Part shown: positions 12,908 to 51,854 of the stretch, piece after piece
Layout of the letters: every line of letters begins with the position of its first letter
Numbering within the stretch: position 1 is the stretch's first letter
IMG/VR virus record: IMGVR_UViG_3300020463_000030
Span: 1-51,854 of that record
Length of the DNA stretch: 51,854 bases
Reading direction: 5' to 3' (one strand)
Source of the DNA: a virus
Notes under the pieces: generated by a model
The model's input: only the letters and a program-made list of their open reading frames with translations
The model's database searches: none
What the model was told of the DNA's origin: nothing
Made by a program: the position numbers and the translations under genes

Positions 12908-13135
12908 TTATCTAAAATTGGGCTTGTTTGACAATTTTAACTCCATATACGTTTTAAATGCAAGGTCGGGAATTACGAACCAAATAGTATGAGCATCCAT
13001 ACTCCACGAGGTTTTTTGGAACTTTTTTCGTACTCCACGTTGTCCTTTCCATTCATTACCAAACCATTGTTTCAGCTCTCTAATAATTTCATACCATTGG
13101 TCAATGTAACGTATCTCAAAATAAACCTTGTGCAT
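12908..13135 (-). CDS. Unknown small protein (75 aa)
   Basis: A tryptophan- and lysine-rich soluble protein (WYEIIRELKQWFGNEWKGQRG) with no recognised family. The ATG at 13135 immediately follows the DNA ligase stop, and the gene ends just before the giant coiled-coil gene, so it belongs to the ligase transcription unit. Aromatic and basic content would fit nucleic-acid binding, but this is a guess. Confidence 0.5.
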   Translation of the reverse strand: MHKVYFEIRYIDQWYEIIRELKQWFGNEWKGQRGVRKKFQKTSWSMDAHTIWFVIPDLAFKTYMELKLSNKPNFR

Positions 13136-14520
13136 TAGATTTTCTCGCCTGCTTCAAAACCTCTAAATCTTTCAAAACGAGGAAAACGTAAACTGTATGT
13201 TCCGTCTTGATTCTGTGTTACTGCATCTGCTTTAACTTCAACAATGTAACCAACTAGAGAATCTTTTCTAGTCCAAAAGTCATCCCTATCACTATCAGAC
13301 AGGCCGCTTCCAACGTTAACACGTATGGTACGATTGTCGTCGACACCTTCGCATACAAGAGCTCCCAAACGTCCTTCATTTCTTCCTGTTCCTTCTTCAA
13401 TGTCAATGACCTCCAAGTCTACTGTTATTACAGGCTTCCACTTCATCCAAAATGTACTACGTCTACATTCATATGGAGCATGTTGTTGTTTAATCATAAT
13501 GCCTTCATAGCCTTCTGCAACACAATTGTTTGCATACTGTTCCATAAACTTATGATCTTCTTCGTTATCTAAGTTAAGTTGCTTGCCTTTTACCATAACA
13601 ACATGGTCCATGTTTACTCTATTTACTAAACTTTCTAATGCAAGTAACCGATCAATTTGTTTTGTGTTGCAAAATCCACGTTTGAAATCATCTAGTATCA
13701 TAAAGTCAAATACATTAAACACACTGTCAGTAGCAGTGTGATCCTTTTTAGTAGCACCTCTCATAAGTTCCTGAAAGCTCTTACCAGTAATCTCACCGTC
13801 TATGACCAATGCGTCTGTATCATGCGATCTAAATGTACTTGCAATTTTAGCAAGATCCTCTGCTATGTGAGGAAAGTTTGCAAATTCTTTACCGTTCCTA
13901 CTGTATAACATTACAGTGCCATTTGCATAGATAATTGCAATAGTTCTCACACCATCTAACTTAGGCTCAATCATTACTTCGCCTTTAAGTTTCTTTGGAT
14001 GTCCTTTTGAATCTGTTGCAAGTTGTACTTCAAACACAGGAATCTTCCATTCTGTTTTGCCAACTATCTTGTTAATTGTTTTACTTGTAATGCCGCAACG
14101 TAGGTCTTTTATTAGCACACGTCTAGCAAGTAGATTCCATTGCTCACTGTCAAACTTTTCGCTCATAAGTTCTACTGCTTCTCTAGCCGCATTGCCTGTA
14201 ATAGTTCTTGTACGTAAACTCTCGCATAATCCCCAAAAAGCAACCCAAGGATTTTCTCTGTGTTCATTGCCCTGTGTTTCGGCAACTTGTTTAATGTTGT
14301 ACATAAAATATGGATTGTATGCTAGATAGCAATTGTATAAAAAGCATTCTGCACTGTGACTACCTAGTCTAGCCGCTATTAATGCTTTCTCAATGACACC
14401 TTCTTTGTGTATGCGACTATTACTCTCCTCAAGATCTTGTATCCAATCGCAAGCCACTTGTAATCCATTATAATTTTCTGAAGTATATTTTATTTTGTTT
14501 AGCACGAGTGATGTCTCCAT
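13135..14520 (-). CDS. 30: ATP-dependent DNA ligase (T4 gp30-like)
   Basis: 461 residues, close to T4 ligase (487). Nucleotidyltransferase motif I is EPKLDGVR with adenylated lysine K187; motif III VIDGEITG; motif IV EGIMIKQQ; motif V FWMKWKPV. The N-terminal ~170 residues form the alpha-helical DNA-binding domain typical of T4-type ligases and the C-terminal part is the OB fold (VGYIVEVKADAV). The enzyme seals nicks in replication and recombination. A near-perfect sigma70-type promoter lies immediately upstream, so it is probably expressed early. Confidence 0.95.
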   Translation of the reverse strand: METSLVLNKIKYTSENYNGLQVACDWIQDLEESNSRIHKEGVIEKALIAARLGSHSAECFLYNCYLAYNPYFMYNIKQVAETQGNEHRENPWVAFWGLCESLRTRTITGNAAREAVELMSEKFDSEQWNLLARRVLIKDLRCGITSKTINKIVGKTEWKIPVFEVQLATDSKGHPKKLKGEVMIEPKLDGVRTIAIIYANGTVMLYSRNGKEFANFPHIAEDLAKIASTFRSHDTDALVIDGEITGKSFQELMRGATKKDHTATDSVFNVFDFMILDDFKRGFCNTKQIDRLLALESLVNRVNMDHVVMVKGKQLNLDNEEDHKFMEQYANNCVAEGYEGIMIKQQHAPYECRRSTFWMKWKPVITVDLEVIDIEEGTGRNEGRLGALVCEGVDDNRTIRVNVGSGLSDSDRDDFWTRKDSLVGYIVEVKADAVTQNQDGTYSLRFPRFERFRGFEAGEKI

Positions 14521-19994: not shown

Positions 19995-20243
19995 TTAGTA
20001 GCCGGTACCATTGAACCCTGTATTTTCTATGTAGTCACACAGATCTTCGTAACCACCAACCAAGTGTCCATGTATTACAATTTGTGGAGCAGTTTTTGCA
20101 TTAGGTGCAATCTCTAGTAGTTGCTCTCGTGTAACGTCTGTGCCTATCTTGTATTGCTTATACTTTACACCCATGTGATCAAATAAGTCTTTGGCTGCAT
20201 CGCAATAACCACACAAGTCTTTTGTATAAATTTCAATACTCAT
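19995..20243 (-). CDS. Glutaredoxin
   Basis: 82 residues with redox motif CGYC (C11-C14), the cis-proline TAP (51-53), and the glutathione-binding GGYEDL (63-68): the complete glutaredoxin-3-type fold. It likely re-reduces the phage ribonucleotide reductase, whose genes lie immediately upstream in the same operon (its ATG overlaps the nrdB stop by 4 bases). Glutathione reductase would be supplied by the host. Confidence 0.95.
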   Translation of the reverse strand: MSIEIYTKDLCGYCDAAKDLFDHMGVKYKQYKIGTDVTREQLLEIAPNAKTAPQIVIHGHLVGGYEDLCDYIENTGFNGTGY

Positions 20244-21364
20244 AAACTAAATCCTGCAAAGCTATTTTTATCTACGTCTTGTTTTGTTCCGCCGTTAACA
20301 TAACTAGTTATCTCCGTTTCCTGTGGAGCAACCTGTACATCACCACCTGCAATCCACTTTTGTGTCCAAGGTAATGGATTACTTGCACCTTTGTAGCTAC
20401 TTGGTACACCAACTGCGATCATACGTTTGTTTGCAATCCACTGTACATATTCTTTCAGTAACTGTGCATTCAGTCCAATCATCGATCCATCTTTGAATAA
20501 ATAGTCCGCCCACGCACATTCTTGTTCTACTGCGTCCTCAAACATTTTTATTACTAGTGGTTCACACTCTTCTTTGATTTTAACAAAGTCTGGATCATCT
20601 TGTGGTAGTATTTTCATCAGTTGTTGAGTACTTGCTAGGTGGACATTTTCATCTCTTGCAATAAACTTAATAATTTTAGCATTACCTTCCATTTTCTTGA
20701 GTTCAGCAAATGCCCAACTACAAGCAAAGGATACATAAAAACGTACACCTTCAAGGATGTTTACACTTGCTAAACAGGTCCATAGTTTTTTCTTCAGTTC
20801 ATACATATCAATTACAATTTTTTTGCCGTTGACAGTATGTGTTCCTTCACCTAACAGATTATAGTAACTGCATGTTTTTATTAGATCATCATAGTAGGAA
20901 GTAATATCATCACCACATTCAATAATCTCTTGTATATCCATCATCTCATCAAATACCTTGCTTGGGTTCGAATATACATTACGGATAATATGCGTGTAAC
21001 TTTTTGAATGTATTGTTTCACTAAACGTCCAGGTAATGATCCAGTTCTCTAACTCAGGTAAACTCACAATAGGAGAAAATGCTTCATTGGGGGCTCTACC
21101 TTGCACACTGTCTAACAGTATCTGTCTTTTAAGATTGCTAGTAAAAATATGCTTTTCATTAGCAGTAAGTTCTTTAAAATCCTTGGCATCGCGTAGTACA
21201 TCTACTTCTTCAGGACGCCAAAAGAATCCTAACTGCTTGTCAGTTAGTTTATCAAACTGTCTGTACTTTAATGTATCATATCTTTGTATTCCGACTCCGC
21301 CTGCTGGATCTAAAAATGCTAAACTTGTCGTATGGTCTCTATTTGCGGTATTTAATACACTCAT
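20240..21364 (-). CDS. nrdB: Ribonucleotide reductase class Ia, beta subunit
   Basis: 374 residues, near the E. coli length, with all di-iron ligands and radical site aligned: D85 (LLDS), E116 and H119 (ETIH), radical tyrosine Y123 (HSKSYTH), and the second ligand set in LEGVRFYVSF and ARDENVHL. The C-terminal tail (KNSFAGFSL) is the peptide that docks on NrdA. It generates the tyrosyl radical needed for reduction of ribonucleotides to deoxyribonucleotides for phage DNA synthesis. Follows nrdA by 9 bases and overlaps glutaredoxin. Confidence 0.97.
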   Translation of the reverse strand: MSVLNTANRDHTTSLAFLDPAGGVGIQRYDTLKYRQFDKLTDKQLGFFWRPEEVDVLRDAKDFKELTANEKHIFTSNLKRQILLDSVQGRAPNEAFSPIVSLPELENWIITWTFSETIHSKSYTHIIRNVYSNPSKVFDEMMDIQEIIECGDDITSYYDDLIKTCSYYNLLGEGTHTVNGKKIVIDMYELKKKLWTCLASVNILEGVRFYVSFACSWAFAELKKMEGNAKIIKFIARDENVHLASTQQLMKILPQDDPDFVKIKEECEPLVIKMFEDAVEQECAWADYLFKDGSMIGLNAQLLKEYVQWIANKRMIAVGVPSSYKGASNPLPWTQKWIAGGDVQVAPQETEITSYVNGGTKQDVDKNSFAGFSL

Positions 21365-21373
21365 TATTTCTTC

Positions 21374-23677
21374 CTATATTGTGCAACTTTCACATTCTTC
21401 TTCAAATGTGTCTTCAATTACTATTTGTTGTGTTTGTGTTTCGTTCATTTTATCAATATCAATTTCTCCAGCACCGTCAAAAGTGTTGAAGTAATACAAC
21501 TGCTTGTGGCCATATTTATAGCAAAGCAATAGATGTTGTAGCATAACGCTCATTGGTATCTTTTCATCATCGAAGTGTACGGGGTTGTAAGATGTGTTTA
21601 CACTTATGCCCTGGTCAATATATTTTTGCATAACTGCCATAATTTTTAAGTAACCTTCTGGAGACTTTTGATCCCATAACAGCTCATACTTGTTTTTGTA
21701 ACGTGCATATCCTGGAACTACTTGTTTAAGTACGCCATCTTTGCTTTGCTTAATACTTACAAATGCTCTTGGAGGTTCAATACCATTTGTACTGTTGCTT
21801 ATTTGTGCTGATGTTTCAGCAGGCATAAGTGCCATTAGTGTTGAATTACGTATGCCAGTTTTTCTCAGTTGTGTTCGTAGTCCTGTCCAATCTACTGCAT
21901 CAACATGTACTACAAGTTCGTCAACATCTTTCTTATATGTGTCAACGGGTAGCACACCATCTGAATATTTTGTTTCATCATTCATCGGACATGCACCAAA
22001 CTCTTCTGCAAGATCTGCACTTGCTTTTATTAAGTAATAACTCCAGTGTTGAGCCCATGTATCTACTAGTTTAAGTGCATCTGGATCACTGTAACTGGTA
22101 TCATTTCTGGCAAGAAAGTATGCAAGATTTATTATACCAACACCTAAAGGACGTCTACCTTCCGTTGCCATTTGTGCGGCAATGATTGGATAGTTTTGAT
22201 AACTTAATAGTGCATCAAGTCCACGTACTGCCAGTGTACATGCCTTTTCCATGTCCTCTGGATTTGTAAAACTGCCCCAATTAATTGCACTTAATGTACA
22301 CAATGCAATTTCACCTGTAACATCATTTATATCGTTTAGAGGCTTGGTTGGCAAGTCTATTTCACAACACAAGTTGCTTTGCTTTATCGGTGCAACATCT
22401 GTTTTAAAACTACTGTGTTCATTTGCATGATCAACATTTTGCAAGTATATTCTTCCTGTGTCTTTTCTTTCTTGCATAAAAGCAGAAAAAAGTTCTGTGG
22501 CACTTATTTTCTTTTTACGTACACTTGTTTTGCGTTCGGCCGCTTCGTATAGTTCTCTAAACTTGTCTTGATCTTGAAAGAAGGCATCATATAGTCCAGG
22601 AACATCATTGGGAGAGAATAGTGTAATATCACCGCCACTCATTAAACGTTCGTACATAAGTTTGTTAAACTGTACACCGTAGTCCATATGCCTGACACGA
22701 TTATCTTCTGTGCCTTTATTATTTTTAAGCACAAGCAAATCTTCTACTTCTAAATGCCATAGTGGATAGTAAAGTGTCGCCGCTCCGTTACGTACACCCC
22801 CTTGTGAACAACTGCGTGTGGCCGCTTGAAACATTTTGTAAAATGGAACAACACCTGTGTGATATGCATCGCCATTTCGTATTGGCGAACCTAATGCTCT
22901 AATACGTCCGCCATTGATACCAATGCCTGCTTTCTGTGAAACATATTTTACAATAGAACTTGATGTTGCATTAATACTGTCTAAACTATCATCTGCCTCG
23001 ATTAGCACACAACTTGAAAACTGTCGTTGTGGTGTACGTACACCGGCCATAACTGGTGTTGGCAAACTTATCTGGTGTGTGCTGATAGCATCGTAGTAAT
23101 CTTTCACCCAACGTAGTCTTATCTTCTTATCATAATCTTGAAACAGTGTACACGCAATTAACATATAACACATCTGTGGAGTTTCATACAAAGTTTTTGT
23201 TACTCTGTTTTGCACAAGATACTTGCCACGAAACTGCTCCATAGCGGCATATGTAAGTTGCTCATCACGTTCATGCTTTATCCAGCCATTGATAGTATTC
23301 CATTCTTCTTCGGTGTATTCACTTAACAGTTCTGCATCGTAGAAACCTTTTTCTACATTGTGCTTGACAAGTTTATAAACATGCCAATGATCAAAACCAC
23401 CATACACCATTTTGTTTATATGATAACTTATTAATCTACCAGCGACAGTTTGATAGTTTGGTGTTTCTTCTGATATTAAATCAGCGGCACTTTTTATCAG
23501 TGTTTCTTGAATATCTGTAGTTGAGATACCCTCATAAAATTGTACATTGCTACTAATTTCAACTTGACTAGCACTTACTCCAGCTATGTTTTCTGTTGCC
23601 CAGTAAACTACCTTGTGTAGTTTTTCTATATCCAATGGTTCTCTTTTGCCGTCACGTTTAGTAACTTGTATTGTCAT
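21374..23677 (-). CDS. nrdA: Ribonucleotide reductase class Ia, alpha subunit
   Basis: 767 residues. N-terminal ATP-cone (VTKRDGKREPLD onwards), catalytic domain with the redox cysteine in FSSCVLIE, the active-site SNLCCEIDLP region and MPAETSAQISNSTNGIEPP, and a C-terminal thiol pair CESC (762-765) for reduction by glutaredoxin. The ATP-cone is kept, so dATP feedback inhibition may be retained, which is notable for a phage enzyme. A sigma70-type promoter and a 12-bp palindrome lie in the 236-base gap upstream; the Shine-Dalgarno AAAGG precedes the ATG. Confidence 0.97.
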   Translation of the reverse strand: MTIQVTKRDGKREPLDIEKLHKVVYWATENIAGVSASQVEISSNVQFYEGISTTDIQETLIKSAADLISEETPNYQTVAGRLISYHINKMVYGGFDHWHVYKLVKHNVEKGFYDAELLSEYTEEEWNTINGWIKHERDEQLTYAAMEQFRGKYLVQNRVTKTLYETPQMCYMLIACTLFQDYDKKIRLRWVKDYYDAISTHQISLPTPVMAGVRTPQRQFSSCVLIEADDSLDSINATSSSIVKYVSQKAGIGINGGRIRALGSPIRNGDAYHTGVVPFYKMFQAATRSCSQGGVRNGAATLYYPLWHLEVEDLLVLKNNKGTEDNRVRHMDYGVQFNKLMYERLMSGGDITLFSPNDVPGLYDAFFQDQDKFRELYEAAERKTSVRKKKISATELFSAFMQERKDTGRIYLQNVDHANEHSSFKTDVAPIKQSNLCCEIDLPTKPLNDINDVTGEIALCTLSAINWGSFTNPEDMEKACTLAVRGLDALLSYQNYPIIAAQMATEGRRPLGVGIINLAYFLARNDTSYSDPDALKLVDTWAQHWSYYLIKASADLAEEFGACPMNDETKYSDGVLPVDTYKKDVDELVVHVDAVDWTGLRTQLRKTGIRNSTLMALMPAETSAQISNSTNGIEPPRAFVSIKQSKDGVLKQVVPGYARYKNKYELLWDQKSPEGYLKIMAVMQKYIDQGISVNTSYNPVHFDDEKIPMSVMLQHLLLCYKYGHKQLYYFNTFDGAGEIDIDKMNETQTQQIVIEDTFEEECESCTI

Positions 23678-37517: not shown

Positions 37518-38534
37518 TTATGTTTTTATACACGATCCGCAATTATCATCACAGATCATTAAACGTCCTTTTTCATAGGTTTTTTCTTTCCAACGTTTTT
37601 CAACATTAGCAAACCATTGTATACAATGTTTTATGCTATGTTTAAGAGCATTATTTTCAAATATCAAAGGTATCAGTTGATTATTGGCTGCTTGATGATA
37701 TTGTCCTTTACCGTAGGTTTCTGGATAGAACCCCATATAACAACATGGACTAACATCACCATTGGCAGCAATATAGATGCTTTTATTAATGATTGTTTCG
37801 CATGTTACACTTTTACTAGGAATTTTGCCTGGAATTACATCTTCTAGTAATACGTCATCTTGTGTCTTGCTTTCAAACAGGATGTTAAAATCAGTTTCAC
37901 CTGTGTAGTTGCCTAGTACATGTTTGAGTTTTTTATCTTTACCAAACACAGGAGCAGTATCTCTGCCTGCATCAATTAAGTCAAATGCTTTAAATCCCAT
38001 TTGTTTGCTTAATTCTTGGCATTCTTCAATTTGATGCTCATTGTGTTTAAATTTAATCATTTGCCAAACTGCTCGACCACCATTGTCAATGAATGCTTTT
38101 GCATTTTTAATCACAGTTGCCCATACAGTATTCTGTCTATATAAACTATGAGTATCTTCTAATCCGTCTAATGCAAAATGAATGCGACAGTCAAATTTTG
38201 CAAACTGTTTCCAAAAGTTTGCTTTCCTAGCACCACCATTGGTGCTAATTCTTATGTCCAGGTCTTTATTATATTCTCTTAAATATTCTACAATATATTC
38301 AGCATGAGGATTCATTACTATGTCTCCATAGTTGCCATTGATGCGTAAGATGTCTAACTGTTTTACAAAATAAGGATGAAATATTTTTTTAGCATTGTCA
38401 AGTGTGAGATAAAGTTCTGGATACCCGCCATTGAATTCATAACCCCAAAAATTCCTCGGACACCACGGACAACTTGCATTGCATAAAGTAGCTATCTCTA
38501 AATGTACCTCTCTTACGTCTTTGTATGCAATCAT
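37518..38534 (-). CDS. Radical SAM/SPASM-type enzyme
   Basis: 338 residues. The cluster motif is CNASCPWC (C18, C22, C25) at the N-terminus; NGDVSPCCYMGFYPE near the middle-late region and CDDNCGSC at the end provide additional cysteines that resemble a SPASM auxiliary cluster domain. SPASM enzymes modify ribosomally made peptides or perform related radical chemistry. The first gene of the unit in transcription order is the 2OG oxygenase; this one is the last, with 4-base ATGA overlaps to the SDR-like gene, so all three act in one coupled cassette. Confidence 0.88.
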   Translation of the reverse strand: MIAYKDVREVHLEIATLCNASCPWCPRNFWGYEFNGGYPELYLTLDNAKKIFHPYFVKQLDILRINGNYGDIVMNPHAEYIVEYLREYNKDLDIRISTNGGARKANFWKQFAKFDCRIHFALDGLEDTHSLYRQNTVWATVIKNAKAFIDNGGRAVWQMIKFKHNEHQIEECQELSKQMGFKAFDLIDAGRDTAPVFGKDKKLKHVLGNYTGETDFNILFESKTQDDVLLEDVIPGKIPSKSVTCETIINKSIYIAANGDVSPCCYMGFYPETYGKGQYHQAANNQLIPLIFENNALKHSIKHCIQWFANVEKRWKEKTYEKGRLMICDDNCGSCIKT

Positions 38535-39022
38535 TTTACTGACTCAATCTGTATCATAGGAATACGAAACGGTTGTTCAATGATCCATCTAATCGTAGAG
38601 CCAATGTGTTCTATATCGCACATATCGTCACCTATGCCGCCGAGCACCACGTATGTAGTTTTAACACCTGATATTCCTGTGTTATTGCTCAATTGTAAAC
38701 TTTGTTTTCTAAGTTTTTGTTTGCTTTGATTGTAATCGCTGGTATCATCAGTATTTTCAAGTGTAGTGCCTATATTAATAATGTGTCCTTTGGTATCTTT
38801 TTGCATCCATTGACTATAGCATGTGTGCATTAAACGTTGTTGTACACCTGGAGCAACAAATGCACTGTTTACAAATACGGTATAGTCTTCAATTTCATTG
38901 GCAAATTGTGCTATTGACTTGTCCGTTTTAAAATCGTAACCTGTGCTTAAACTAGCATGCCTGTTAGGGTTTATAGCATACGCAATAGTTTTGCGAGCTG
39001 GGTTACCAGTACAAAAGATCAT
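38531..39022 (-). CDS. SDR-like oxidoreductase, shortened
   Basis: 163 residues with the catalytic Y-x3-K of short-chain dehydrogenases in DYNQSKQKLR, preceded by a strand ending in NIGTTLEN as in the family's S-containing strand. The usual N-terminal TGxxxGxG nucleotide-binding motif is not visible (start MIFCTGNPARKT has only TGNPAR), so NAD(P)H binding is uncertain and the protein is shorter than the ~250-residue family norm. It may be a reduced or substrate-binding homologue, or part of a fused complex with its neighbours. Both ends overlap neighbours by 4 bases. Confidence 0.65.
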   Translation of the reverse strand: MIFCTGNPARKTIAYAINPNRHASLSTGYDFKTDKSIAQFANEIEDYTVFVNSAFVAPGVQQRLMHTCYSQWMQKDTKGHIINIGTTLENTDDTSDYNQSKQKLRKQSLQLSNNTGISGVKTTYVVLGGIGDDMCDIEHIGSTIRWIIEQPFRIPMIQIESVK

Positions 39023-39471
39023 TGGTATAATGCATAGATACTTAATCTACCTTCATGTGGTGTTTGATCAGGAACACCGTGTATCATCGTAGAATTATTA
39101 TACATAATGTAGCCTCGATTGCGTCCATATTCTATTGTGCGATCACCAAATTGTGTTCCCGGCGATTTTCTATTGTCCAAGTATACTTGTACTGCTACAC
39201 GTACTCTGTCATTATCAAGATGTTGACTCATTTTAAAGTCAACATCATCTTTCCACAACGTAACACCCATAAAATCTAAATGTTCAAACAATGGAAGATT
39301 GTCAAACCAGTTGTGTATAGTTTCAATTGGACTGTCAAGCAACCAACTAATTTTTTTTCTTGGCAAATGTTCCTGCATTTCTTGTAGTTGCCAATCTTGA
39401 TTTGTTTCCGCAAAAGTTACTAACTGATCAACTAAAACGTTTGGCAAAAAATTTTCAATTTCTATTATCAT
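39019..39471 (-). CDS. 2OG-Fe(II) oxygenase, third copy
   Basis: 150 residues, prolyl-hydroxylase-like. The iron triad is H84-L-D86 (SQHLDND) and H131 (MIHGV), and R142 (EGRLSIYA) fits the 2-oxoglutarate ligand. It lacks the long insertions of the 14560-16054 pair and is not a close relative. The ATG lies only about nine bases from a TATAAATA box, so its message may be almost leaderless. It starts the oxygenase-SDR-radical SAM cassette. Confidence 0.85.
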   Translation of the reverse strand: MIIEIENFLPNVLVDQLVTFAETNQDWQLQEMQEHLPRKKISWLLDSPIETIHNWFDNLPLFEHLDFMGVTLWKDDVDFKMSQHLDNDRVRVAVQVYLDNRKSPGTQFGDRTIEYGRNRGYIMYNNSTMIHGVPDQTPHEGRLSIYALYQ

Positions 39472-39479
39472 GGTGCAAA

Positions 39480-39487
39480 TATTTATA
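39480..39487 (-). promoter_or_regulatory. TATAAATA box before the oxygenase cassette
   Basis: Exact TATAAATA on the minus strand in the 77-base divergent gap between the oxygenase and the DnaE-like gene. It is so close to the ATG that a canonical start site would leave only a few leader bases and no Shine-Dalgarno, so either translation is nearly leaderless or the match is coincidental. Confidence 0.4.
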
Positions 39488-39548
39488 GTAGCATATTTTC
39501 TGGTGTAAATATACCTATTAAGGCATCTTTAGGCAAACATAGGCAAAC

Positions 39549-41243
39549 ATGAAAACAGAAATACAACAGATACAATCATTATTAGAACAATTTAGAAGAC
39601 CAACTCCAAAAAGCGAAGAATATCAAAACAGACTAGCAGAAGAATTTGAAATTATACTTCAGCAACGTTTTACAGATTACTTTCTCAAAATAAGACTTAT
39701 ACTCGATCTCAATAAAGATATACCACACATGACCAGAGGTAGTGCTGGTAGTAGTTTGGTTTGCTATCTCATGGGTATAACAGACGTTGATCCAATTGAA
39801 TGGAACATACCATTAGCAAGATTCTTAAATCCGCACAGAGATGACTTGCCAGATGTAGATATTGATATACCTCACCACAAACAAGAACTTGCTATGCAAC
39901 GTGTGTTTGATAGATGGCCAACACAGAGTGCTAGAATATCAAACTATGTGCTTTATAGAGAAAAGTCAGCACGTCGCGAAGCCGCCAAACGTCTTGGAGC
40001 AAAGGGCAGGCTACCAAAAGATATTGACTACGCAAAACTAGGCGTTGATGAACAAGAAGCAAGACGTATTGAACGCAAACTAATGGGTAAGAAGCGTTGT
40101 ATAAGCAAACACTGTGGCGGCGTGTTAGTATTTGATAGAGCATTACCTAAAAGTTTGTTCCGTGATGACAATCTTATACTACTTGACAAGAACGAAGTAG
40201 AGGATTTGGAACATTTGAAAGTAGATATACTTGCAAACAGAGGATTATCACAGTTACTAGAAATAGATCCTCACACAAGACTAGATGCTTATCCAAAACA
40301 AGATGAACGTGTTGCTGATTTATTGTGTAGAGGTGATGTACTTGGCGTAACACAAGGCGAGTCGCCCACAATGAAAAGACTGTTCCGTGCATTGCAACCA
40401 ACAGGAGTTGAGGACTGTGTGTTTGCAAGTGCGTTAGTACGTCCTGTTGCAATGGAGGGCAGACGTAAAGCCAGTTGGTTCAGAGACTGGAGTGAAAAAG
40501 GCATACAAAAGAATGCAATAGTGTATGAAGATGATGCTATACATAAAATAATGAAGTTGATTGGTATATCACCATATGAAGCAGACATGTACAGACGTGC
40601 TTTTGCAAAAAAGAACGAAGAGAAGATGATGCAGTTTATGGCACGCTTAGGTGATCATCCAGACAAGCATGACATCTATGAACAAATGCAAAGCCTAAGT
40701 GGATTTGGTTTGTGCAGGGCACACGCAGTAAACTTGGGTAGACTTATATGGGCATTGGCATATCACAAAGTTTACAATCCAAAACAATTTTGGGCGGCTT
40801 GTTTGAAACACTGTCAAGGATCATATGCACGTTGGGTATATCGCAACGAAGCAAAACGTGCCGGTTGGGATCTACGTGACTTAGGCTTTGACAATTGGAT
40901 TACAGAGGATCCAATTGAAAGTTTTAAACAATATGGTGCTTGGAATAGTCCAGGATTTTTACCAAACATGGGATTGCAAAATTTATTCTTAGACAAGTTT
41001 CAGTTTGCAGGTATAATTGCCGCCAGTAGAGTGTTTAAAAGCGATCCAAAAAATTACATACACTTTATAACACTAGGAGTAGGTGAAGGTCGCTATGTTG
41101 ATCTAGTTGTAGACAAGCCTGTAAAATATGCACGTGATAGTGTGGTAGTGGGTGAAGGACAAATGTGGACCAAAGACAACAGTAACTATCTAAAAGTAAA
41201 AAGAAAGAACGTAAAAGCAATGCCTATTGATCAGTATGCTTAA
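39549..41243 (+). CDS. PHP-less DnaE-like (DNA polymerase III alpha family) protein
   Basis: 564 residues colinear with the DnaE polymerase core: RGSAGSSLVCYLMGITDVDP (palm/fingers entry), PDVDID with D104 and D106 (the DnaE catalytic DxD), ISKHCGGVLV (DnaE GKHAGGVVI), LKVDILANRG with D226 (third catalytic Asp), LGVTQGESPTMKRLFRALQP (DnaE VFQLES...), ALVRP, ADMYRRAFAKKNEEKM and LSGFGLCRAHAVNLGRLIW. A C-terminal region resembles the OB-fold. The ~280-residue N-terminal PHP domain is entirely absent, and the protein is about half the usual length. Catalytic residues are intact, so activity is possible, though T4-like phages replicate with B-family gp43. On the plus strand, convergent with gp41 (stops overlap). 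Confidence 0.8.
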   Translation: MKTEIQQIQSLLEQFRRPTPKSEEYQNRLAEEFEIILQQRFTDYFLKIRLILDLNKDIPHMTRGSAGSSLVCYLMGITDVDPIEWNIPLARFLNPHRDDLPDVDIDIPHHKQELAMQRVFDRWPTQSARISNYVLYREKSARREAAKRLGAKGRLPKDIDYAKLGVDEQEARRIERKLMGKKRCISKHCGGVLVFDRALPKSLFRDDNLILLDKNEVEDLEHLKVDILANRGLSQLLEIDPHTRLDAYPKQDERVADLLCRGDVLGVTQGESPTMKRLFRALQPTGVEDCVFASALVRPVAMEGRRKASWFRDWSEKGIQKNAIVYEDDAIHKIMKLIGISPYEADMYRRAFAKKNEEKMMQFMARLGDHPDKHDIYEQMQSLSGFGLCRAHAVNLGRLIWALAYHKVYNPKQFWAACLKHCQGSYARWVYRNEAKRAGWDLRDLGFDNWITEDPIESFKQYGAWNSPGFLPNMGLQNLFLDKFQFAGIIAASRVFKSDPKNYIHFITLGVGEGRYVDLVVDKPVKYARDSVVVGEGQMWTKDNSNYLKVKRKNVKAMPIDQYA

Positions 41244-42646
41244 CCTTTTTGCTTGATACCTGCCAACATCTGTTTTAGTTTTGTACTTTGTACATCAGCA
41301 ACAATCTTACCTGGCTCATCTTCTACAGTAGCATCATTTTGAGGATCTGATTGTATTGACTTTGCTTTTATTTGATCATAGATACTTGAACTCTGTTTCT
41401 TAAACTGTTGATACTCTTCATCGTCACCTAAGTCACGTATACGTAAACTTTCTATGTCAAACTCCAAGTCCACTTTCATACCAACGCCTGAACTGCTTCT
41501 AGTCTTCATAGCCTGTATTTGATATCTACCACGTTCACGCATAGCTCTACTTGTAAATATGCCAAACACATTGTCAGCAGTATTGATCTTACTAATACCA
41601 CCACTTATGTGCGAATGATCAAACTCTACTTCTTCAACTGCACTTCTATTCAACTGTGAAGCAGTTACAAACAGTATGTTAAGTTCTCTTGCCAAATTAC
41701 GCAGTTCTTCTGAAACATACTTGTCCTTTACAAACAAATCATTTGGCGATACTTTAGCACTAACTGGCATAAGCAAATCCAGATAGTCAATGCACATAAA
41801 ATCTATTGCTTTTCCTTGCTTAATGCTTAGTTCTTTTACAAATGCTCTAATATCATTTACGTTGCTTTGTGCAGGCATGTACTTTATTTGCAAGCCACCT
41901 GCTTTCTTGCCCATCATCTTCACTTTCATTTCAACAGTTTCAATGTCTTTGAACAACTGTTTGCTAGGAGTATTTGTTAACATACTATCAACACGCATAG
42001 CAGTCAATCCTTCACTTAATTCAAGTGTAACATACACTCCACTTAGTCCTGCTTCCATCCAGTTTACTGCTAAGTTTTGCATGAACAAACTTTTACCTGA
42101 TCCTGACCCACCTGCAAATATCTGTAGCTCTCCTCTGTTGAAACCACCATATAACAGTTTGTCTAACTTTGGCCAACCAGTTGAATTCTGTCCATTGTTG
42201 TCTTTCAGTGCCGCAAGCCTTGCCCTTGGATCCTCAAAATAATCTGTGCCCAAGTCCTTTGTCAAACTTATTTGCACTGCATCCTTTATAAGTTTCTCAA
42301 CTGGTGAATACTCACCTTTCTCTAGCAAGTCTGCACTTTTTAATATTGCACGTTCTAGTTCAGTACGTCTTGTAAATGCCTCAAACGTTTCTAAAAACCA
42401 ATCAGTATGTCCACTGTTTAAGTCTGGAATTGGCAACAGTTCAATATTTGTAACTGCTTTGATCTGTGCTCTGTCAGGAAGTGTCTTGTGTTCATTGGCA
42501 TGATCATAGATAAACTTTGCAGTTTCTCGCAAGTCTCTGTCAAAGTTTTCTTCATTAAAAATATTTTGCACTCTTAAGAAACTTTGTGCATCATGCATCA
42601 TCATTTCTAAGAATAATTTCTGTACGTCATATGTATATTCTATCAT
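41240..42646 (-). CDS. 41: Replicative DNA helicase (T4 gp41, DnaB-like)
   Basis: 468 residues. N-terminal helical domain for hexamer/primase contacts, then the RecA-like core with Walker A GGSGSGKS (179-186), VYVTLELSEG, Walker B CIDYLDLL, and FVTASQLNRSAV (motif H3/DnaB-type glutamine). It unwinds DNA ahead of the fork with primase gp61, encoded just upstream (ATGA overlap). Its 3' end overlaps that of the DnaE-like gene by four bases on opposite strands. Confidence 0.96.
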   Translation of the reverse strand: MIEYTYDVQKLFLEMMMHDAQSFLRVQNIFNEENFDRDLRETAKFIYDHANEHKTLPDRAQIKAVTNIELLPIPDLNSGHTDWFLETFEAFTRRTELERAILKSADLLEKGEYSPVEKLIKDAVQISLTKDLGTDYFEDPRARLAALKDNNGQNSTGWPKLDKLLYGGFNRGELQIFAGGSGSGKSLFMQNLAVNWMEAGLSGVYVTLELSEGLTAMRVDSMLTNTPSKQLFKDIETVEMKVKMMGKKAGGLQIKYMPAQSNVNDIRAFVKELSIKQGKAIDFMCIDYLDLLMPVSAKVSPNDLFVKDKYVSEELRNLARELNILFVTASQLNRSAVEEVEFDHSHISGGISKINTADNVFGIFTSRAMRERGRYQIQAMKTRSSSGVGMKVDLEFDIESLRIRDLGDDEEYQQFKKQSSSIYDQIKAKSIQSDPQNDATVEDEPGKIVADVQSTKLKQMLAGIKQKG

Positions 42647-43614
42647 ACTATCCTCACTAGGCGTTTACGTGCCATTTCAATTTTTATCTTACTACGTTCT
42701 GCACACTGATGTATCTGTCGTAGTGTTTCTGCTACACCAAATCGCACCACTGCATCATTCACATCTTTAACATCTTCAGGCCACTCTGGTATACTAACTT
42801 CAAACTTGTGTTCTACTGCGGCATCAATTATACTTAATCCTGCCCGATCCTGATCAGGAACTACTATAATTCTACGTTGCAACTGCTTTAACAACTGTGC
42901 TTGATCTTTGCTTATTGTTTCGTGCATACATGCTAGTCCGGATATACTTAGTGCATCAAATATACCTTCAACAACTATAGCACTGGTCCAGTCTGACTTT
43001 TGTAAATCATATCCAAACACATATCCTGGTTGCTGACTGTTAATAAACTTTGGCGTACGATTATCCAAGTAACGACTTGTATGTCCTACTATCCTATTCT
43101 TGTACGTGTATGGTATAACGATCCTATCTCTTGGGCCCCGTTTTTTATCTACTAGAAACGGATAGCCAAATACCATGCCACGTTTTTTTAAGTATTCAAC
43201 ATAGTGAAAATGCTCTCGATTGTTTTCATCTATGCGTTCAACACCTTGTGGTATTTCTTGTTCTTCAAAGTCAATCTGCTTTTGTTTGATTGTATTACGT
43301 TCAGCAGTTAAGTCTAACAAACTTTTACGTTTTAAACTTTCTAAGTTCAGTCTTTCAATGTCAGTTGGATCAACACCTAGCCATTCAAGTAACTTACGTG
43401 CTTTGTAACCAACACTACGCCCTGCAGTAAAACTTGCAGTGAAGCCACAATTGAAACAGTGATAACTCCAGTCATCTTCTGTTTGTTTAATACCACCACG
43501 CAGACGTTTGTCCTGTGACTCGCCTTTGTGTACACAACAGGGTGCATTAAAACTTACCCAACCAGAACTTGTTTGTTTTCGCTTCTGCGGAATGTAACTC
43601 AATAGATCGATCAT
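42643..43614 (-). CDS. 61: DNA primase (T4 gp61-like)
   Basis: 323 residues. N-terminal zinc-binding module with APCCVHK (C26, H29 ligands) and CFNCGF (C53, C56), followed by a helical linker and a TOPRIM-like core: VVEGIFDALSISG (acidic E) and VVPDQDRAGLS (DxD). It makes RNA primers at the fork and pairs with gp41, whose gene overlaps by four bases. Length close to T4 gp61 (342). Confidence 0.94.
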   Translation of the reverse strand: MIDLLSYIPQKRKQTSSGWVSFNAPCCVHKGESQDKRLRGGIKQTEDDWSYHCFNCGFTASFTAGRSVGYKARKLLEWLGVDPTDIERLNLESLKRKSLLDLTAERNTIKQKQIDFEEQEIPQGVERIDENNREHFHYVEYLKKRGMVFGYPFLVDKKRGPRDRIVIPYTYKNRIVGHTSRYLDNRTPKFINSQQPGYVFGYDLQKSDWTSAIVVEGIFDALSISGLACMHETISKDQAQLLKQLQRRIIVVPDQDRAGLSIIDAAVEHKFEVSIPEWPEDVKDVNDAVVRFGVAETLRQIHQCAERSKIKIEMARKRLVRIV

Positions 43615-44284: not shown

Positions 44285-45277
44285 CTAGCGATAGGTTATT
44301 TGTGTAATTTCGCCATTGTCAATAATAACAGTGGGTGCTGTTATATATCCTTGTCCACCATTGGTCAGTGTAATAGTGCCTAGTTTTCCACCGTCTACCG
44401 TGGTAGTGGCAGTCGCACCTGCGCCTAATCCATCTAATCGCACACGTGGATTGCCAGGGCCATACCATTCACTGCCTGACCCGTTACTTGATATTGTAGT
44501 TACTGCTCCATTTTGTACTTGTGCAGTTGCGTTGCCGCTGATGCCATATTGATTCATTTCCAAACGTAGCCAATTATGTCTACCATCAACATTTATATAA
44601 GTTCTTGTTTTTTGATTTACATATTCAACTTGGCTACCTACATCATACCAATCAGGTCCAATTTGGTTTTCACTTGCTTGTACTTTAACATTTCCAGAAA
44701 AATTATCAAAGTCGAGTTGTAAAGTTGTTAGTGTGTTTTCCGCAGTGTAAATTGCACTGGTGTGATTTCTGTTTCCGTTTGACTGTGCAGGTTGATCAAG
44801 TGGCTGTGGTAGCAACATGATTTTACTTTCTACAAAATCAGGATACACACTGTCAACTATTTCAACTTGACCTCTCCCACCGCTGTAGTCATCTGTGTAC
44901 ACTGCTTCATATAAGTTACCACTGGCACGTTCTAAACTGTATGTGGCAGTTTGTTCTTCTATTAGATCAAGTTTCTCACTTGATAGTGTTACTTTTGCTC
45001 TTCCAAATGCACTGCTTAAATGCACAAGATCTTCTGCTATTAATAGTTCATCGCCATCTGTACTCATCATTCTAAATGTTATTGTACTACCTGAGATGTT
45101 TACAGGTTTTTGGTCTTGGTTGATAAATTCAAACAATATGACGTTGTCAACTCCTCTGTTGACCTTTAATTTTTTTGCATACACTGGTTGCCATCTCCTT
45201 TGAAAGTACGCACCGCTGGTGTCAGGTAATAGTACCTGTTGCTTTTGCTGATATAAATATACGGTGGTAGAATACAT
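44285..45277 (-). CDS. BppU-like baseplate/fibre protein (330 aa)
   Basis: Start chosen at the ATG at 45277 (MYSTTVYLYQQ); the longer frame begins at a TTG. Residues about 35-150 (NVILFEFINQDQKPVNISGSTITFRM) match the BppU N-terminal baseplate-upper domain pattern. The middle has fibre-like strands (WLRLEMNQYGISGNATAQV), and the C-terminus is glycine-rich (LGAGATATTTVDGGKLGTITLTNGGQGYI). A structural protein of the tail adhesion device is the likely role. Confidence 0.65.
   Translation of the reverse strand: MYSTTVYLYQQKQQVLLPDTSGAYFQRRWQPVYAKKLKVNRGVDNVILFEFINQDQKPVNISGSTITFRMMSTDGDELLIAEDLVHLSSAFGRAKVTLSSEKLDLIEEQTATYSLERASGNLYEAVYTDDYSGGRGQVEIVDSVYPDFVESKIMLLPQPLDQPAQSNGNRNHTSAIYTAENTLTTLQLDFDNFSGNVKVQASENQIGPDWYDVGSQVEYVNQKTRTYINVDGRHNWLRLEMNQYGISGNATAQVQNGAVTTISSNGSGSEWYGPGNPRVRLDGLGAGATATTTVDGGKLGTITLTNGGQGYITAPTVIIDNGEITQITYR
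45252..45259 (+). promoter_or_regulatory. TATAAATA late-type box for the 125-aa gene
   Basis: Exact TATAAATA on the plus strand, 47 bases before the ATG at 45306, the right spacing for a T4 late promoter with a ~40-base leader. It lies just outside the divergent BppU-like gene start. Confidence 0.55.
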
Positions 45278-45305
45278 TAATTTTAACTCCAATTACAAGG
45301 TATTT

Positions 45306-45683
45306 ATGGGCGTAGAGCTATTCGAAAAGATCGCAGAGCGTTATCCATTCATTACATTTTGCACATATGCAAGTAATGAGTACGTTGGCGTAATACAAAA
45401 TAGAGATGACCAAATAACAACAATCTACGACTTTGGCGGTATAGTCGAAGATCATCTCAAACGTGATTTTTTAGAACTTGCAAATCAATGGTGGTGGGAA
45501 TCGAACCGCAGTATACCAATAAACATATTCTTAAAACAGGATTGGGAAAAGTTTAAGCCTTATCTTAAAACTTTTATTAACAAAGATTTAGATATAATAC
45601 TTGGCCCTAGCACAAGCCTTCAAGAACTTTCTCGCAAAAAGGTAAAACGTAGAAGTATTACACTTGTTCGCAAAGTAGATTAA
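45306..45683 (+). CDS. Conserved unknown protein (125 aa), plus strand
   Basis: Start taken at the ATG at 45306 because of AAGG nine bases upstream and to avoid overlap with the divergent gene; the frame is open to 45264. The protein (MGVELFEKIAERYPFITFCTYASNEYVGVIQN) has strands then a WWWES segment and a basic end (SRKKVKRRSITLVRKVD). I recognise it only as a typical marine T4-like phage unknown. Its last 26 bases overlap the mini-DnaE gene on the other strand, and it is flanked by replication genes, which may reflect a replication or transcription role. Confidence 0.55.
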   Translation: MGVELFEKIAERYPFITFCTYASNEYVGVIQNRDDQITTIYDFGGIVEDHLKRDFLELANQWWWESNRSIPINIFLKQDWEKFKPYLKTFINKDLDIILGPSTSLQELSRKKVKRRSITLVRKVD

Positions 45684-46218
45684 TATGTAATGCAACAAGA
45701 CGTGCATAACTTATTGCATGTGACTTTTTAAACACAAATCCACTTGTGTCATCACCATCCCACACAGTTTCAAATACTTCTTTCCAAGGTTTACGTTGTA
45801 GATGTGCTTTTCCTGGACGTATAATGCTTATAAAGGCTGCCATACGAGTTATTGAGTTAGGCTCCATTGCTACTTGCAAATCATGGTAGTTTCCTATATG
45901 CACTATACGTTCACAGAAACTTTTATCTTGTAATCTATGCCATTCTGGTTCTTTGGCCAACATAGCATCATAGTGTATTTGATCTCGTATCAGTGTGTAT
46001 ACACTTTGGTTAAGTAAATCTAGTTTAAAATAACCGCGTTGTTCTGCATATTCATAGTCAATACTTGCACAACCATTGGGTGCATCAACAGGTATTGGCG
46101 TAACATAAACACCACTGTTGTGTTTACGTCCTTCTGCATTTTGTCTAGCAGGAGTACACTGGATTAGATCCATTATGTGTTGCCTGTCAGCAAAATCTAT
46201 ATCTACATCAGCACTCAT
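45658..46218 (-). CDS. Miniature DnaE-like protein (186 aa)
   Basis: Only 186 residues, yet it carries the DnaE-type palm signatures in order: SADVDIDFADR (D6, D8 as the catalytic DxD), RKHNSGVYVTPIP (DnaE KHAGGVVI), YFKLDLLN with D67 (third Asp), SITRMAAFISIIRPG (DnaE ALVALFRPG), and FVFKKSHAISYARLVALHINLL (DnaE FNKSHSAAYALVSYQTLWL). The fingers, thumb and PHP are missing. It retains the three aspartates, but whether so small a core can bind DNA alone is doubtful; it may be a regulator, primer-handling factor or relic. Its start overlaps the stop of the 325-aa gene. Confidence 0.7.
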   Translation of the reverse strand: MSADVDIDFADRQHIMDLIQCTPARQNAEGRKHNSGVYVTPIPVDAPNGCASIDYEYAEQRGYFKLDLLNQSVYTLIRDQIHYDAMLAKEPEWHRLQDKSFCERIVHIGNYHDLQVAMEPNSITRMAAFISIIRPGKAHLQRKPWKEVFETVWDGDDTSGFVFKKSHAISYARLVALHINLLCEQV

Positions 46219-47380: not shown

Positions 47381-48838
47381 TTATTCTCCTCCATGTGTAC
47401 GTAATTTGTCTAAAGCAGGTATATAGTCAATTAATCTACTGTTTCTTGCTTGGTCAAGTTCATCATTGTATACAAAAAATTTAGTAATAGCAGTTTTATT
47501 TACGAAACTTTGTTTAGCACTGTTAATTGTTCCGTCGATAAAACTTTGAAACATTGCATTATTATGGTAAATTTTGGTTGTACGAATCGATTCCAGATTG
47601 CGTATTTGATCTTGAGAATACTGAAAAACAAATGGCGAATGTTGATTGGCATATTGTCCGTGTATCCAACAATCTGGAAATTCACTATCAAGAAAGTGTA
47701 TTAATTTGTGATAATCAAATACTGTCCACAAGCTCAGCACAGTATTAAAATGTATTTTGTGTCCATTGTCTTGTAACTTGTGTGCATTTTTAATTATTGT
47801 TTCCCATTTACTACGCCATCGAGAGTAGTCATTGTGTTTTTTATAACCGTCAATGCTAATTATGTACTGCAAATTTTTAAAATGCGAACCGATTTCAAGC
47901 AGTACTGTTGATACCTTCATTGCATTGGTATTAACAATAAATTCAAAGTCCGTATATTTTCTTTTGACACATTTTCTTACAAAGTCATAAAATTCTGGCA
48001 TCGCAGTTGGCTCTCCGCCTGCAACGTATAACTTTACAATATGTTCTATTTTTACGATGTCAAAATTACTGTATTGTTCGGTATATTCTTGTGGTATTTT
48101 TCCTAATTGTTTTTGTTCTTTTTCAATTAGACTACTAAAAATAGGTGCACACATTCTACACATTAAATTACAAGTATTGCTTGGACGTACTTCATAGTAT
48201 ACTGGGTCCGTTACACTGCCCAGATCATCAACTGTTTTTAAATTAAGACGCATTGCCCATTCTACTGTTTCTTCTTGACGTGCAGAAATTATACTTTTAT
48301 CTTCTAATTTATAACATACTTTGCAATGCTCTGGTAAACTTTTTCCTGTCAGCATTGCGTTACGTATTTTTGCATATTCTCTATCTGTTGCAAAATTTTC
48401 TAATTTATCTATACTTTGTACGGGGGTATCACTTCGACAACATACTGTTGTATGTCCATTTTGTGTTAACAGTTCAATGAAAGGAAATATGCAAAAACTT
48501 TTGTTATTACTAACCAAATCTTGCCAATATACTAACTGTGTTTTTGCATCTGCGTTTTGCCAACTTACTTTATTGCCAATTCTTATGGCTATATCTTGTG
48601 TAGCATGAAATTCAGTAGGATGATTCCATTGGTCGACGGGTTGATCCAACACAATTACACGATCAAACTGTTTGGAGAGTTTAAGGATTTCACTGTTTGT
48701 TAAATCTAGCACACTGGTATGATAAAAGCCGTCTTTGACTTCAATATCTACGTTGCTAATTAATCCGTGATTATTGCCAAGAGTGCTTGTTAATTCATCA
48801 GTGTGTTTGTGATTATTACCGAGACAAAGAACTTTCAT
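47381..48838 (-). CDS. Radical SAM enzyme with N-terminal twitch-like cysteine domain
   Basis: The start is the ATG at 48838, whose TAATG overlaps the zinc-finger gene stop (485 aa); the longer open frame starts at a TTG. The radical SAM motif CNLMCRMC (C223, C227, C230) lies in the middle, while cysteines of a SPASM/twitch type (C116, C133, C134, C172, C175) lie N-terminal to it, unlike the usual C-terminal position. After the motif come VAGGEPTAMP and the usual barrel. The arrangement resembles the twitch-first phage enzymes in marine data. The first ~100 residues are an additional unknown domain (start MKVLCLGNNHKH). Substrate unknown. Confidence 0.85.
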   Translation of the reverse strand: MKVLCLGNNHKHTDELTSTLGNNHGLISNVDIEVKDGFYHTSVLDLTNSEILKLSKQFDRVIVLDQPVDQWNHPTEFHATQDIAIRIGNKVSWQNADAKTQLVYWQDLVSNNKSFCIFPFIELLTQNGHTTVCCRSDTPVQSIDKLENFATDREYAKIRNAMLTGKSLPEHCKVCYKLEDKSIISARQEETVEWAMRLNLKTVDDLGSVTDPVYYEVRPSNTCNLMCRMCAPIFSSLIEKEQKQLGKIPQEYTEQYSNFDIVKIEHIVKLYVAGGEPTAMPEFYDFVRKCVKRKYTDFEFIVNTNAMKVSTVLLEIGSHFKNLQYIISIDGYKKHNDYSRWRSKWETIIKNAHKLQDNGHKIHFNTVLSLWTVFDYHKLIHFLDSEFPDCWIHGQYANQHSPFVFQYSQDQIRNLESIRTTKIYHNNAMFQSFIDGTINSAKQSFVNKTAITKFFVYNDELDQARNSRLIDYIPALDKLRTHGGE

Positions 48839-49521
48839 TACCATCCTGCTTGTTTTAATATCTCTTCGCAGTATACTTGGTCTGCTGGATAATCTCGAAA
48901 CTTCTTTGTCCAAAAGTCTGGATCAATCCAAGGCCATACTATTTTTGTTTGATCAGGATTCATGTCTGCTAGATATGCTTGTCCTGATTCGCAGTTGAAC
49001 ACCAACCAAGGTGATATGCGTCCAGTACTTATTGCAAATGCTACACTGTTGTCATTTCCGTAACGCAAAAAGTCTTGTGCTGGATGTCCAGTTTTTTCAC
49101 TCCACTTTATAGAGTATTCTATGCCACGTTCTAGTGCATCAGTAAGTGCTTCTCTTCTAATATACTGTTGCAAGTATTCATCATATACTGCTTCTTTGCA
49201 CCAGTGGTCAAGTTTTTTGTTTTCTTTAATTACCCACTCAACAAATTTGGGTACGTTTATTGCATTGATAGCAACACAATGTCTACCAAATTTTACAAAT
49301 GCTTTATAGTAAGGTGACGTAGCAAAATCAGCATATGTTTTCAGTTTTGCACTGCCCTGTGTCATAGTATAAAACTTCAAATAACTTTGTAAACCAATCT
49401 GTACACCTACTTCTTTTTCTTCTTGGTATCTGCGTTTTTGCTCACAAAGATGTACTGCTAGTGTGCTTTCTTTTCTAAACTCACGTTCACAGTATTTGCA
49501 CTTATACCTTTCCGCTATCAC
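48838..49521 (-). CDS. C2H2-like zinc-finger protein (227 aa)
   Basis: Starts with GTG at 49521. The N-terminal finger is CKYC...H-x-C (C8, C11, H24, C26) with finger-like phenylalanine and leucine between. The rest is helical with hydrophobic patches (VKFGRHCVAINAINVPKFVEW, WPWIDPDFWTKKF) and no nuclease motif I recognise. In T4-like marine phages such proteins sit near replication genes; a DNA-binding or helicase-loading role is speculation. It overlaps both neighbours. Confidence 0.6.
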   Translation of the reverse strand: MIAERYKCKYCEREFRKESTLAVHLCEQKRRYQEEKEVGVQIGLQSYLKFYTMTQGSAKLKTYADFATSPYYKAFVKFGRHCVAINAINVPKFVEWVIKENKKLDHWCKEAVYDEYLQQYIRREALTDALERGIEYSIKWSEKTGHPAQDFLRYGNDNSVAFAISTGRISPWLVFNCESGQAYLADMNPDQTKIVWPWIDPDFWTKKFRDYPADQVYCEEILKQAGW

Positions 49522-50679: not shown

Positions 50680-51854
50680 TTACGCATTCCAATCCAGTTT
50701 TTCTACACTAAAAGGATAGTTTGCTTCTCTATAAAATGCTTTACGTTTGGTTAAATGTCTTTTTGCGAATCTGCAAGTACTTGTTATGTCCCAGATTTGG
50801 ACGTGGTCTTTGTCTTCCGCTTTACGAATACCCCTACCAATGCTTTGTATAACCCGTACAAAACTTTTGCCAGGCTCCAGAAGGACAAGATTGAAAATAC
50901 GTGGGAGATTAATACCAACGGCCGCGACACCATATGTAGCAATAATAATTTTACCTGTCGCAGTAGCCACTTCATCATACTCATCCTGTCTTGCTTTTGC
51001 TTTGGTTGCACCACTTACAAAAACTGCGTCATCGCCCATTCTGTTAAGTAGTTCTGTACCAGCACTAATTCTATCAACCAACACCAATGTGTTACCCGTT
51101 TTATTTACTTCAATAACCAAGCCTGCAATGGTATCAAGTCTACCTTTTTCCTCAAATAGGTACTTTAATTCGCTCTGATAGTTTGTAAATTCTGCATGGT
51201 CAATCAACTGTACAACATTTACATGGCAATTTGCGAGTACGCCTTTTTCTTGTAGTTCACTTGCGGCTAGTTGATTTATAACAGGTCCTAAACTACAGTG
51301 TAGTGCTTGAAACTCATATGGTTCTTTTGGCACTGTACCAGTAAGTCCCCAACGCAATGGCACACGACTCATTACACCAGTTAACAATGTTTTAAGTGCA
51401 TCTGCTTTGGCCATGTGTACTTCATCAACTATTACTGCAACTACATCTTCTAAGAATTCATGTATAGTAATATCTGCACGTTGATTCTTTGTGTTTTTAA
51501 GCAACACATTCAGACTCTGCCATGTGCATATTGTGTGTTTATGCCCAAATTCTTTTCTATCACCATAGAACACACCAACATCAAGTTGCATGTTTACATA
51601 ATCTTTTTCAGTCTGTGTAACTAAACTTTTGTTTGGAACAATAACAATTGAACGTCCATAGTTTTCTACACGTTCACTTAGACTTGCAGTCATTATTGTT
51701 TTTCCAGCACCAGTTGCTACTTCTTGTATGCACTGTGGATTTTTTAAGAAACTGTTTATAATCTCTACTTGATAGTCTCTTAGTACAATAGGAGTGCCAG
51801 ATGCAGGATGATTCTTCGGCCACATAATGTCACTGTAAGTATCTTCTGCAACTG
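50680..51854 (-). CDS. uvsW: UvsW-like DNA/RNA helicase, 5' partial
   Basis: The visible 391 codons extend to the right edge with no stop or obvious start; the ATG at 51825 is preceded by nine more open codons, so the N-terminal domain lies outside the window (T4 UvsW is about 500 aa). Motifs present: Walker A VATGAGKTIM, DEVH box (VDEVHMAK), motif III GLTGT, and motif VI QSIGRGIRK, as in UvsW. It branch-migrates recombination forks and unwinds RNA-DNA hybrids, helping the switch from origin-dependent to recombination-dependent replication. Replication context (gp41, gp61, ligase) agrees. Confidence 0.92.
   Translation of the reverse strand, partial: VAEDTYSDIMWPKNHPASGTPIVLRDYQVEIINSFLKNPQCIQEVATGAGKTIMTASLSERVENYGRSIVIVPNKSLVTQTEKDYVNMQLDVGVFYGDRKEFGHKHTICTWQSLNVLLKNTKNQRADITIHEFLEDVVAVIVDEVHMAKADALKTLLTGVMSRVPLRWGLTGTVPKEPYEFQALHCSLGPVINQLAASELQEKGVLANCHVNVVQLIDHAEFTNYQSELKYLFEEKGRLDTIAGLVIEVNKTGNTLVLVDRISAGTELLNRMGDDAVFVSGATKAKARQDEYDEVATATGKIIIATYGVAAVGINLPRIFNLVLLEPGKSFVRVIQSIGRGIRKAEDKDHVQIWDITSTCRFAKRHLTKRKAFYREANYPFSVEKLDWNA

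Follow-up and report, generated by a model that had tools for sequence, protein, structure and literature searches.

A PHP-less, single-chain DnaE-type DNA polymerase encoded beside helicase and primase genes in a genome fragment from a marine jumbo phage

DNA polymerases of the C family are usually large, multi-domain enzymes that operate together with a clamp and a proofreader, and in bacteria the PHP domain serves as the docking site for the proofreader, epsilon. A half-length, PHP-less homologue of such an enzyme in a phage raises the question of whether it is a working polymerase and, if so, which task it could perform in phages whose main polymerase belongs to the B family. The window considered here is the whole 51,854-nt stretch of IMG/VR record IMGVR_UViG_3300020463_000030. 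The open reading frame in question was found exactly where the preliminary description had placed it, and its main features are as follows.

39549..41243, plus strand: PHP-less single-chain DnaE-type (C-family) DNA polymerase, 564 aa (Pfam PF07733/PF17657, PDB sequence matches, AlphaFold2 and Foldseek, invariant catalytic residues, low dN/dS)
39852..39860, plus strand: codons of the putative catalytic residues D102 and D104 in the PDVDID motif (E. coli D401 and D403; alignment to E. coli DnaE)
40224..40226, plus strand: codon of the putative catalytic residue D226 in the KVDIL motif (E. coli D555; alignment to E. coli DnaE)
40998..41228, plus strand: C-terminal OB-fold domain, residues ~484-560 (AlphaFold2 strands at 484-559, Foldseek OB-fold matches and DnaE coverage, weak E. 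coli alignment)

The proposed C-family core was borne out by Pfam matches to the Pol III alpha palm (PF07733, residues 18-229, E=7e-42) and fingers (PF17657, residues 243-366, E=9e-17), as well as by a sequence search against PDB DnaE chains (E=5e-28). The protein has both characteristic parts of the family, namely a Pol-beta-like palm with three catalytic aspartates in PDxDxDF and KxDxL motifs, and fingers with an RR pair and a KSHA-like helix (PF17657; R349/R350 and H392). Alignment to E. coli DnaE equates R63 with R362, S65 with S364, D102 with D401, D104 with D403, D106 with D405, H188 with H511, K224 with K553, D226 with D555, and R349/R350 with R709/R710. Since D102 and D104 correspond to D401 and D403, and D226 to D555, this alignment identifies D102, D104, and D226 as the catalytic triad, and D106 as the third aspartate of the motif, conserved but non-catalytic. 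Thus, the three catalytic aspartates expected from the preliminary description are present, but its numbering (D104, D106, and D226) has to be changed.

The reported absence of a PHP domain agrees with the lack of a PF02811 match in the protein, whose palm homology begins at residue ~18. Pfam likewise gives no match to PF14579 (HHH_6) or PF20914, representing the HhH clamp-binding region and the C-terminal domain, although both are recovered from E. coli DnaE. The retained parts are reduced as well: the D405-H511 stretch on the thumb side comprises 82 residues vs. 106 in E. coli, the D555-H760 stretch of the fingers 166 vs. 205, and 172 residues vs. 400 remain after the KSHA-equivalent histidine. 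A structure was predicted with AlphaFold2 (pLDDT 78, pTM 0.66) from 34 sequences, made up of the window protein itself, 28 relatives from phages, and 5 DnaE core segments of greater divergence; the predicted fold depends in part on homology, because DnaE cores were included in the alignment. Comparison with known DnaE and PolC structures, which had been suggested as a check, returned both, with the DnaE proteins of M. tuberculosis, T. aquaticus, and E. coli (best E=4e-22) followed by PolC in the Foldseek search against the PDB, whereas the C-terminal segment then matches unrelated OB folds. The OB-like end noted previously is therefore present in the model; its signal is weak by sequence (alignment to E. 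coli OB 997-1075, E=0.02), and its position C-terminal to the fingers in the AlphaFold2 and Foldseek results corresponds to the DnaE arrangement, in contrast to the N-terminal OB fold of PolC. The single-chain polymerase thus consists of a palm, a thumb and fingers of reduced length, and an OB fold at the C-terminus: it shares the palm-thumb-fingers order, the catalytic motifs, and the OB fold with bacterial DnaE (E. coli, T. aquaticus, M. tuberculosis), but is half as long and lacks the PHP domain, the HhH clamp-binding region, and the C-terminal domain.

The half length could point to decay of a full-length DnaE or to faulty assembly. Relatives of the polymerase are, however, encoded in at least 270 IMG/VR stretches, and nearly all of those examined are 561-564 aa long and occupy a fixed neighbourhood in many independent contigs. 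No internal stops occur among 110 loci (near-full-length metagenomic copies, some of them on one contig), and for pairs of the window gene and a relative with unsaturated dS, dN/dS is about 0.03-0.07 (dS 0.57-0.88, dN 0.019-0.041). The same length and neighbourhood in many contigs, the low dN/dS, and the absence of stops rule out degradation or misassembly, the probability of which is negligible. In bacterial and archaeal genomes, the only matches are ordinary DnaE proteins of PHP-bearing length.

The same loci bear on the proposal that the protein is a non-catalytic or regulatory fork factor, i.e., a DnaE-like scaffold binding DNA, the primase, or host Pol III partners. The loss of the PHP, HhH, and C-terminal domains and the adjoining helicase and primase genes are compatible with such a role. 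Nevertheless, the equivalents of E. coli R362, S364, D401, D403, H511, K553, D555, R709, and R710 are identical in 110/110 loci, and R349/R350 together with H392 are invariant in all of them. These metal- and nucleotide-binding residues are under strong purifying selection, and a scaffold would have no need of them; the invariant active site and the low dN/dS therefore make both a dead scaffold and a dying gene unlikely, and this option of the preliminary description can be considered very improbable.

Two replication genes follow the polymerase gene, and the remaining neighbours used for comparison are listed with them.

41240..42646, minus strand: gp41-like DnaB-family replicative helicase, convergent with the polymerase gene, ends overlapping by 4 nt (PF03796, phrog_19)
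42643..43614, minus strand: gp61-like primase (Toprim_2, phrog_47)
45658..46218, minus strand: C-terminal half of a split minimal Pol III alpha, 186 aa, with DVDIDF and FKLDLL Asp motifs and a KKSHA motif (phrog_11778, 1.5e-52)
50680..51825, minus strand: gene matching phrog_16 (8e-71)

The gp41 gene is adjacent or one gene away in almost all single-chain polymerase loci with flanking sequence. The gp41 and gp61 genes support the T4-like replication block described previously, but not its attribution to a classical T4-like phage, as helicase and split-polymerase comparisons group the window with the PA5oct, Atu_ph07, and RaK2 jumbo phages, and 40.8 kb of it align to a 328-kb relative (G001). 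The window is accordingly a fragment of a marine PA5oct/RaK2-like jumbo phage with T4-like replication genes.

A PolB gene was not seen in the 52-kb window fragment, and is present in G001 and in a second relative of 316 kb (G002). In G001 it is intact, with an exonuclease domain and the FDIE, NSLYG, YGDTDS, and KKRY motifs, and ends in TLFEFE. Both relatives combine PolB with the split Pol III pair and the single-chain polymerase. The N-protein of the split pair in these genomes ends just past GRGSSVASY...EFLR and the C-protein starts at (A)DVDIDF; the N-half lies near 142 kb in G001, and none was seen in the window. The product of 45658-46218 is 44% identical to a PA5oct protein, and its gene is located 4.4 kb from the single-chain polymerase gene in a neighbourhood (UvsW, C-half, small opposite gene, structural gene, gp61, gp41) that matches PA5oct and RaK2. 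The small opposite-strand gene between the C-half and the structural gene (45264-45683, plus strand) has a counterpart, likewise on the opposite strand, at the corresponding position in PA5oct, Phosso, Atu_ph07, and RaK2. An AlphaFold2 model of the C-half matches Pol III weakly (best E=0.007), in line with its being half a palm. Neither a separate PHP domain gene in G001, G002, PA5oct, and LR756508 nor a DnaQ exonuclease in G001 and G002 was detected with Pfam, and no PF02916 match above the cut-off, indicative of a T4-type clamp gp45, was obtained in any of four genomes.

A second, C-family polymerase beside a B-family one had been regarded as unexpected. The main polymerase of the relatives is indeed of the B family, but the combination has a precedent: group 2.2 jumbo phages encode a split minimal Pol III beside PolB, and the two were proposed to cooperate in one-strand synthesis or repair (Iyer et al., 2021, PMC7824862); a PHP-less DnaE is also known from Mycobacterium phage Zenon. 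A 2022 study (PMC9123017) reported that PF07733 occurs in 51.9% of one marine jumbo-phage cluster. Split Pol III plus PolB is thus already known, whereas the single-chain enzyme is a separate and apparently undescribed variant; the literature searched, the coverage of which was incomplete, yielded no account of a third polymerase in the form of a PHP-less DnaE in one chain.

The split Pol III of group 2.2 (phrog_11127 and phrog_11778) resembles the window enzyme in being a PHP-less C-family core with PolB as the main polymerase, and it belongs to the same phage group and replication block (UvsW, C-half, gp61, gp41), its C-half being present in the window. In contrast, it is formed by two proteins from distant loci, not by one 564-aa chain; it lacks both the RR-pair fingers and the OB fold, and it keeps the DnaE-like KKSHA, whereas the single chain reads CRAHA at this position. 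The single-chain polymerase, absent from PA5oct and Phosso, has its own cassette and promoter and forms a separate, long-stemmed clade with the LR756508 protein (100/100), the split pairs constituting another (100/100), likewise on a long stem. A common clade of the two is neither rejected nor shown (AU p=0.31). With such long stems, the tree gives no preference to the single chain as parent of the split pair or to the reverse.

The most serious rival explanation is that the single chain is a functional equivalent of the split Pol III, replacing it in some lineages and duplicating it here. The distribution of the genes in some genomes favours this view, since PolB is accompanied by the single chain in LR756508 (484 kb), where split halves were not detected, and by the split pair in PA5oct and Phosso, which lack the single chain, and the tree, as stated, does not reject a common clade. 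Nonetheless, both enzymes coexist in G001, in G002, and in every polymerase-bearing contig reaching the position of the C-half, which makes full redundancy unlikely, and the differences in the fingers, OB fold, and KKSHA/CRAHA motif also argue against it. On balance, we consider equivalence unlikely, though less so than the other alternatives.

A distant homologue, and one of the nearest known counterparts, is a 574-aa protein of LR756508.1, an uncultured 484-kb phage; this protein is 38% identical to the window polymerase over 97% of its length, has the same architecture and all three aspartates, and occurs in a genome that also encodes PolB. Unlike the window polymerase, it has lost the R710 equivalent; its locus, unlike that of the window, has no gp41 or gp61 match within the 12-kb flanks and no TAAATA in the 130 nt upstream. 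No near relatives of LR756508 were found in IMG/VR. The PolB matches in this phage (L195, L200; 260.6-266.9 kb) are two separate open frames ~4-6 kb apart, so that its B-family polymerase may be split or interrupted; those of PA5oct are similarly spread (217.6-221.4 kb). The Zenon DnaE (770 aa) is another PHP-less enzyme, with a C-family core from near residue 24, but it differs from the window polymerase in keeping HHH_6 and in lying near a Pol III sliding clamp gene, and is not close to it in the tree.

Taken as a whole, these data are best explained by an active, accessory, stand-alone C-family polymerase of low processivity that fills gaps or extends primers, a reading from sequence and predicted structure that we regard as probable. 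All active-site residues tested and the OB fold are kept, and in the relatives the enzyme coexists with an intact proofreading PolB. Having lost the PHP, HhH, and C-terminal domains, it would not dock on the host Pol III holoenzyme; the OB fold would direct it to single-stranded template, and there it would extend gp61/gp41 primers or fill short gaps in replication, recombination, or repair, while PolB would carry out bulk synthesis and supply proofreading. The shortened fingers, the reduced thumb, and the loss of R710 in LR756508 speak against this reading, and activity could be weak in the LR756508 branch. A role at the fork is suggested mainly by the gene neighbourhood, which the flanks of the LR756508 locus do not reproduce.

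An error-prone or lesion-bypass polymerase, similar to bacterial DnaE2 or B. subtilis DnaE, would be an alternative to a general gap filler. The enzyme has no proofreading domain, and G001 and G002 yielded no separate gene for one; it is encoded by an accessory cassette that is gained and lost; and bacterial C-family polymerases with an inactive PHP domain (DnaE2 and many DnaE3) are specialized (PMC12926913). The sequence, however, holds nothing that distinguishes bypass from gap filling, and we consider this specialization distinctly improbable relative to an accessory gap-filling or primer-extending polymerase.

Promoter-like elements lie on both strands upstream of the polymerase gene.

39506..39511, plus strand: TAAATA box (T4-late-promoter-like) upstream of the polymerase gene, found in 67/67 distinct upstream regions
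39480..39486, minus strand: divergent ATAAATA box (TATAAATA including the preceding base) for the minus-strand gene 39019-39471 (identified by sequence)

TAAATA occurs 30-73 nt before the polymerase start in all 67 distinct upstream regions, compared with 7.6 expected after shuffling, and the polymerase is probably transcribed from this T4-late-type box of its own. The box also precedes many other window genes, including the non-structural gene for the RNR large subunit, and for this reason the inferred "late" class is unproven; TAAATA may be the main promoter element of the phage. The promoter type suggests expression alongside structural genes, a pattern more in keeping with repair or late replication than with the initial extension of primers. 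The two back-to-back divergent boxes share a 77-nt intergenic region before the polymerase gene.

Mobility of the locus is apparent from two comparisons. In two close relatives, L123 and L129, whose gp41 is 86% identical, the site is empty: the homologue of 39019-39471 comes ~10 nt after the gp41 stop, and no polymerase gene intervenes. In G001, a block equivalent to 39476-41238 (upstream region and gene) has 89% identity and is found at the opposite flank of the radical-SAM gene (37518-38534), which has thus swapped places with the cassette and is itself 69% identical. The position of the block and the contrast in identity indicate that the polymerase gene and its promoter move or are exchanged as a unit. 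Gain, loss, and movement as a cassette in turn imply a function that is likely beneficial but not essential.

We tentatively extend the preferred reading to a three-polymerase phage, in which PolB, the split minimal Pol III, and the single-chain PHP-less Pol III might perform separate tasks, the last being self-contained, needing neither a proofreader nor the clamp or holoenzyme of the host, and carried between jumbo phages on a promoter-bearing cassette. A conserved 564-aa enzyme that has dropped the clamp- and proofreader-related parts and kept the full active site would amount to a minimal Pol III alpha made by nature, with which the requirements of the C-family fold for catalysis could be explored. 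As it occurs together with PolB and the split Pol III already published, the way in which phage polymerases divide their labour becomes open to experiment, and close relatives that either carry or lack the gene at this site provide a natural comparison.

Several other window genes deserve mention. Models of anti-phage defence gave no match. A 402-aa AAA+ protein (9494-10702, minus strand) has its best match in phrog_4339, a family without assigned function, and resembles ATP-dependent protease and clamp-loader families less strongly. An ATP-dependent DNA ligase and both subunits of class I ribonucleotide reductase are encoded on the minus strand (13135-14520, 20240-21364, and 21374-23677), and two different radical SAM proteins (37518-38534 and 47381-48913, minus strand) are located inside or beside the replication block.
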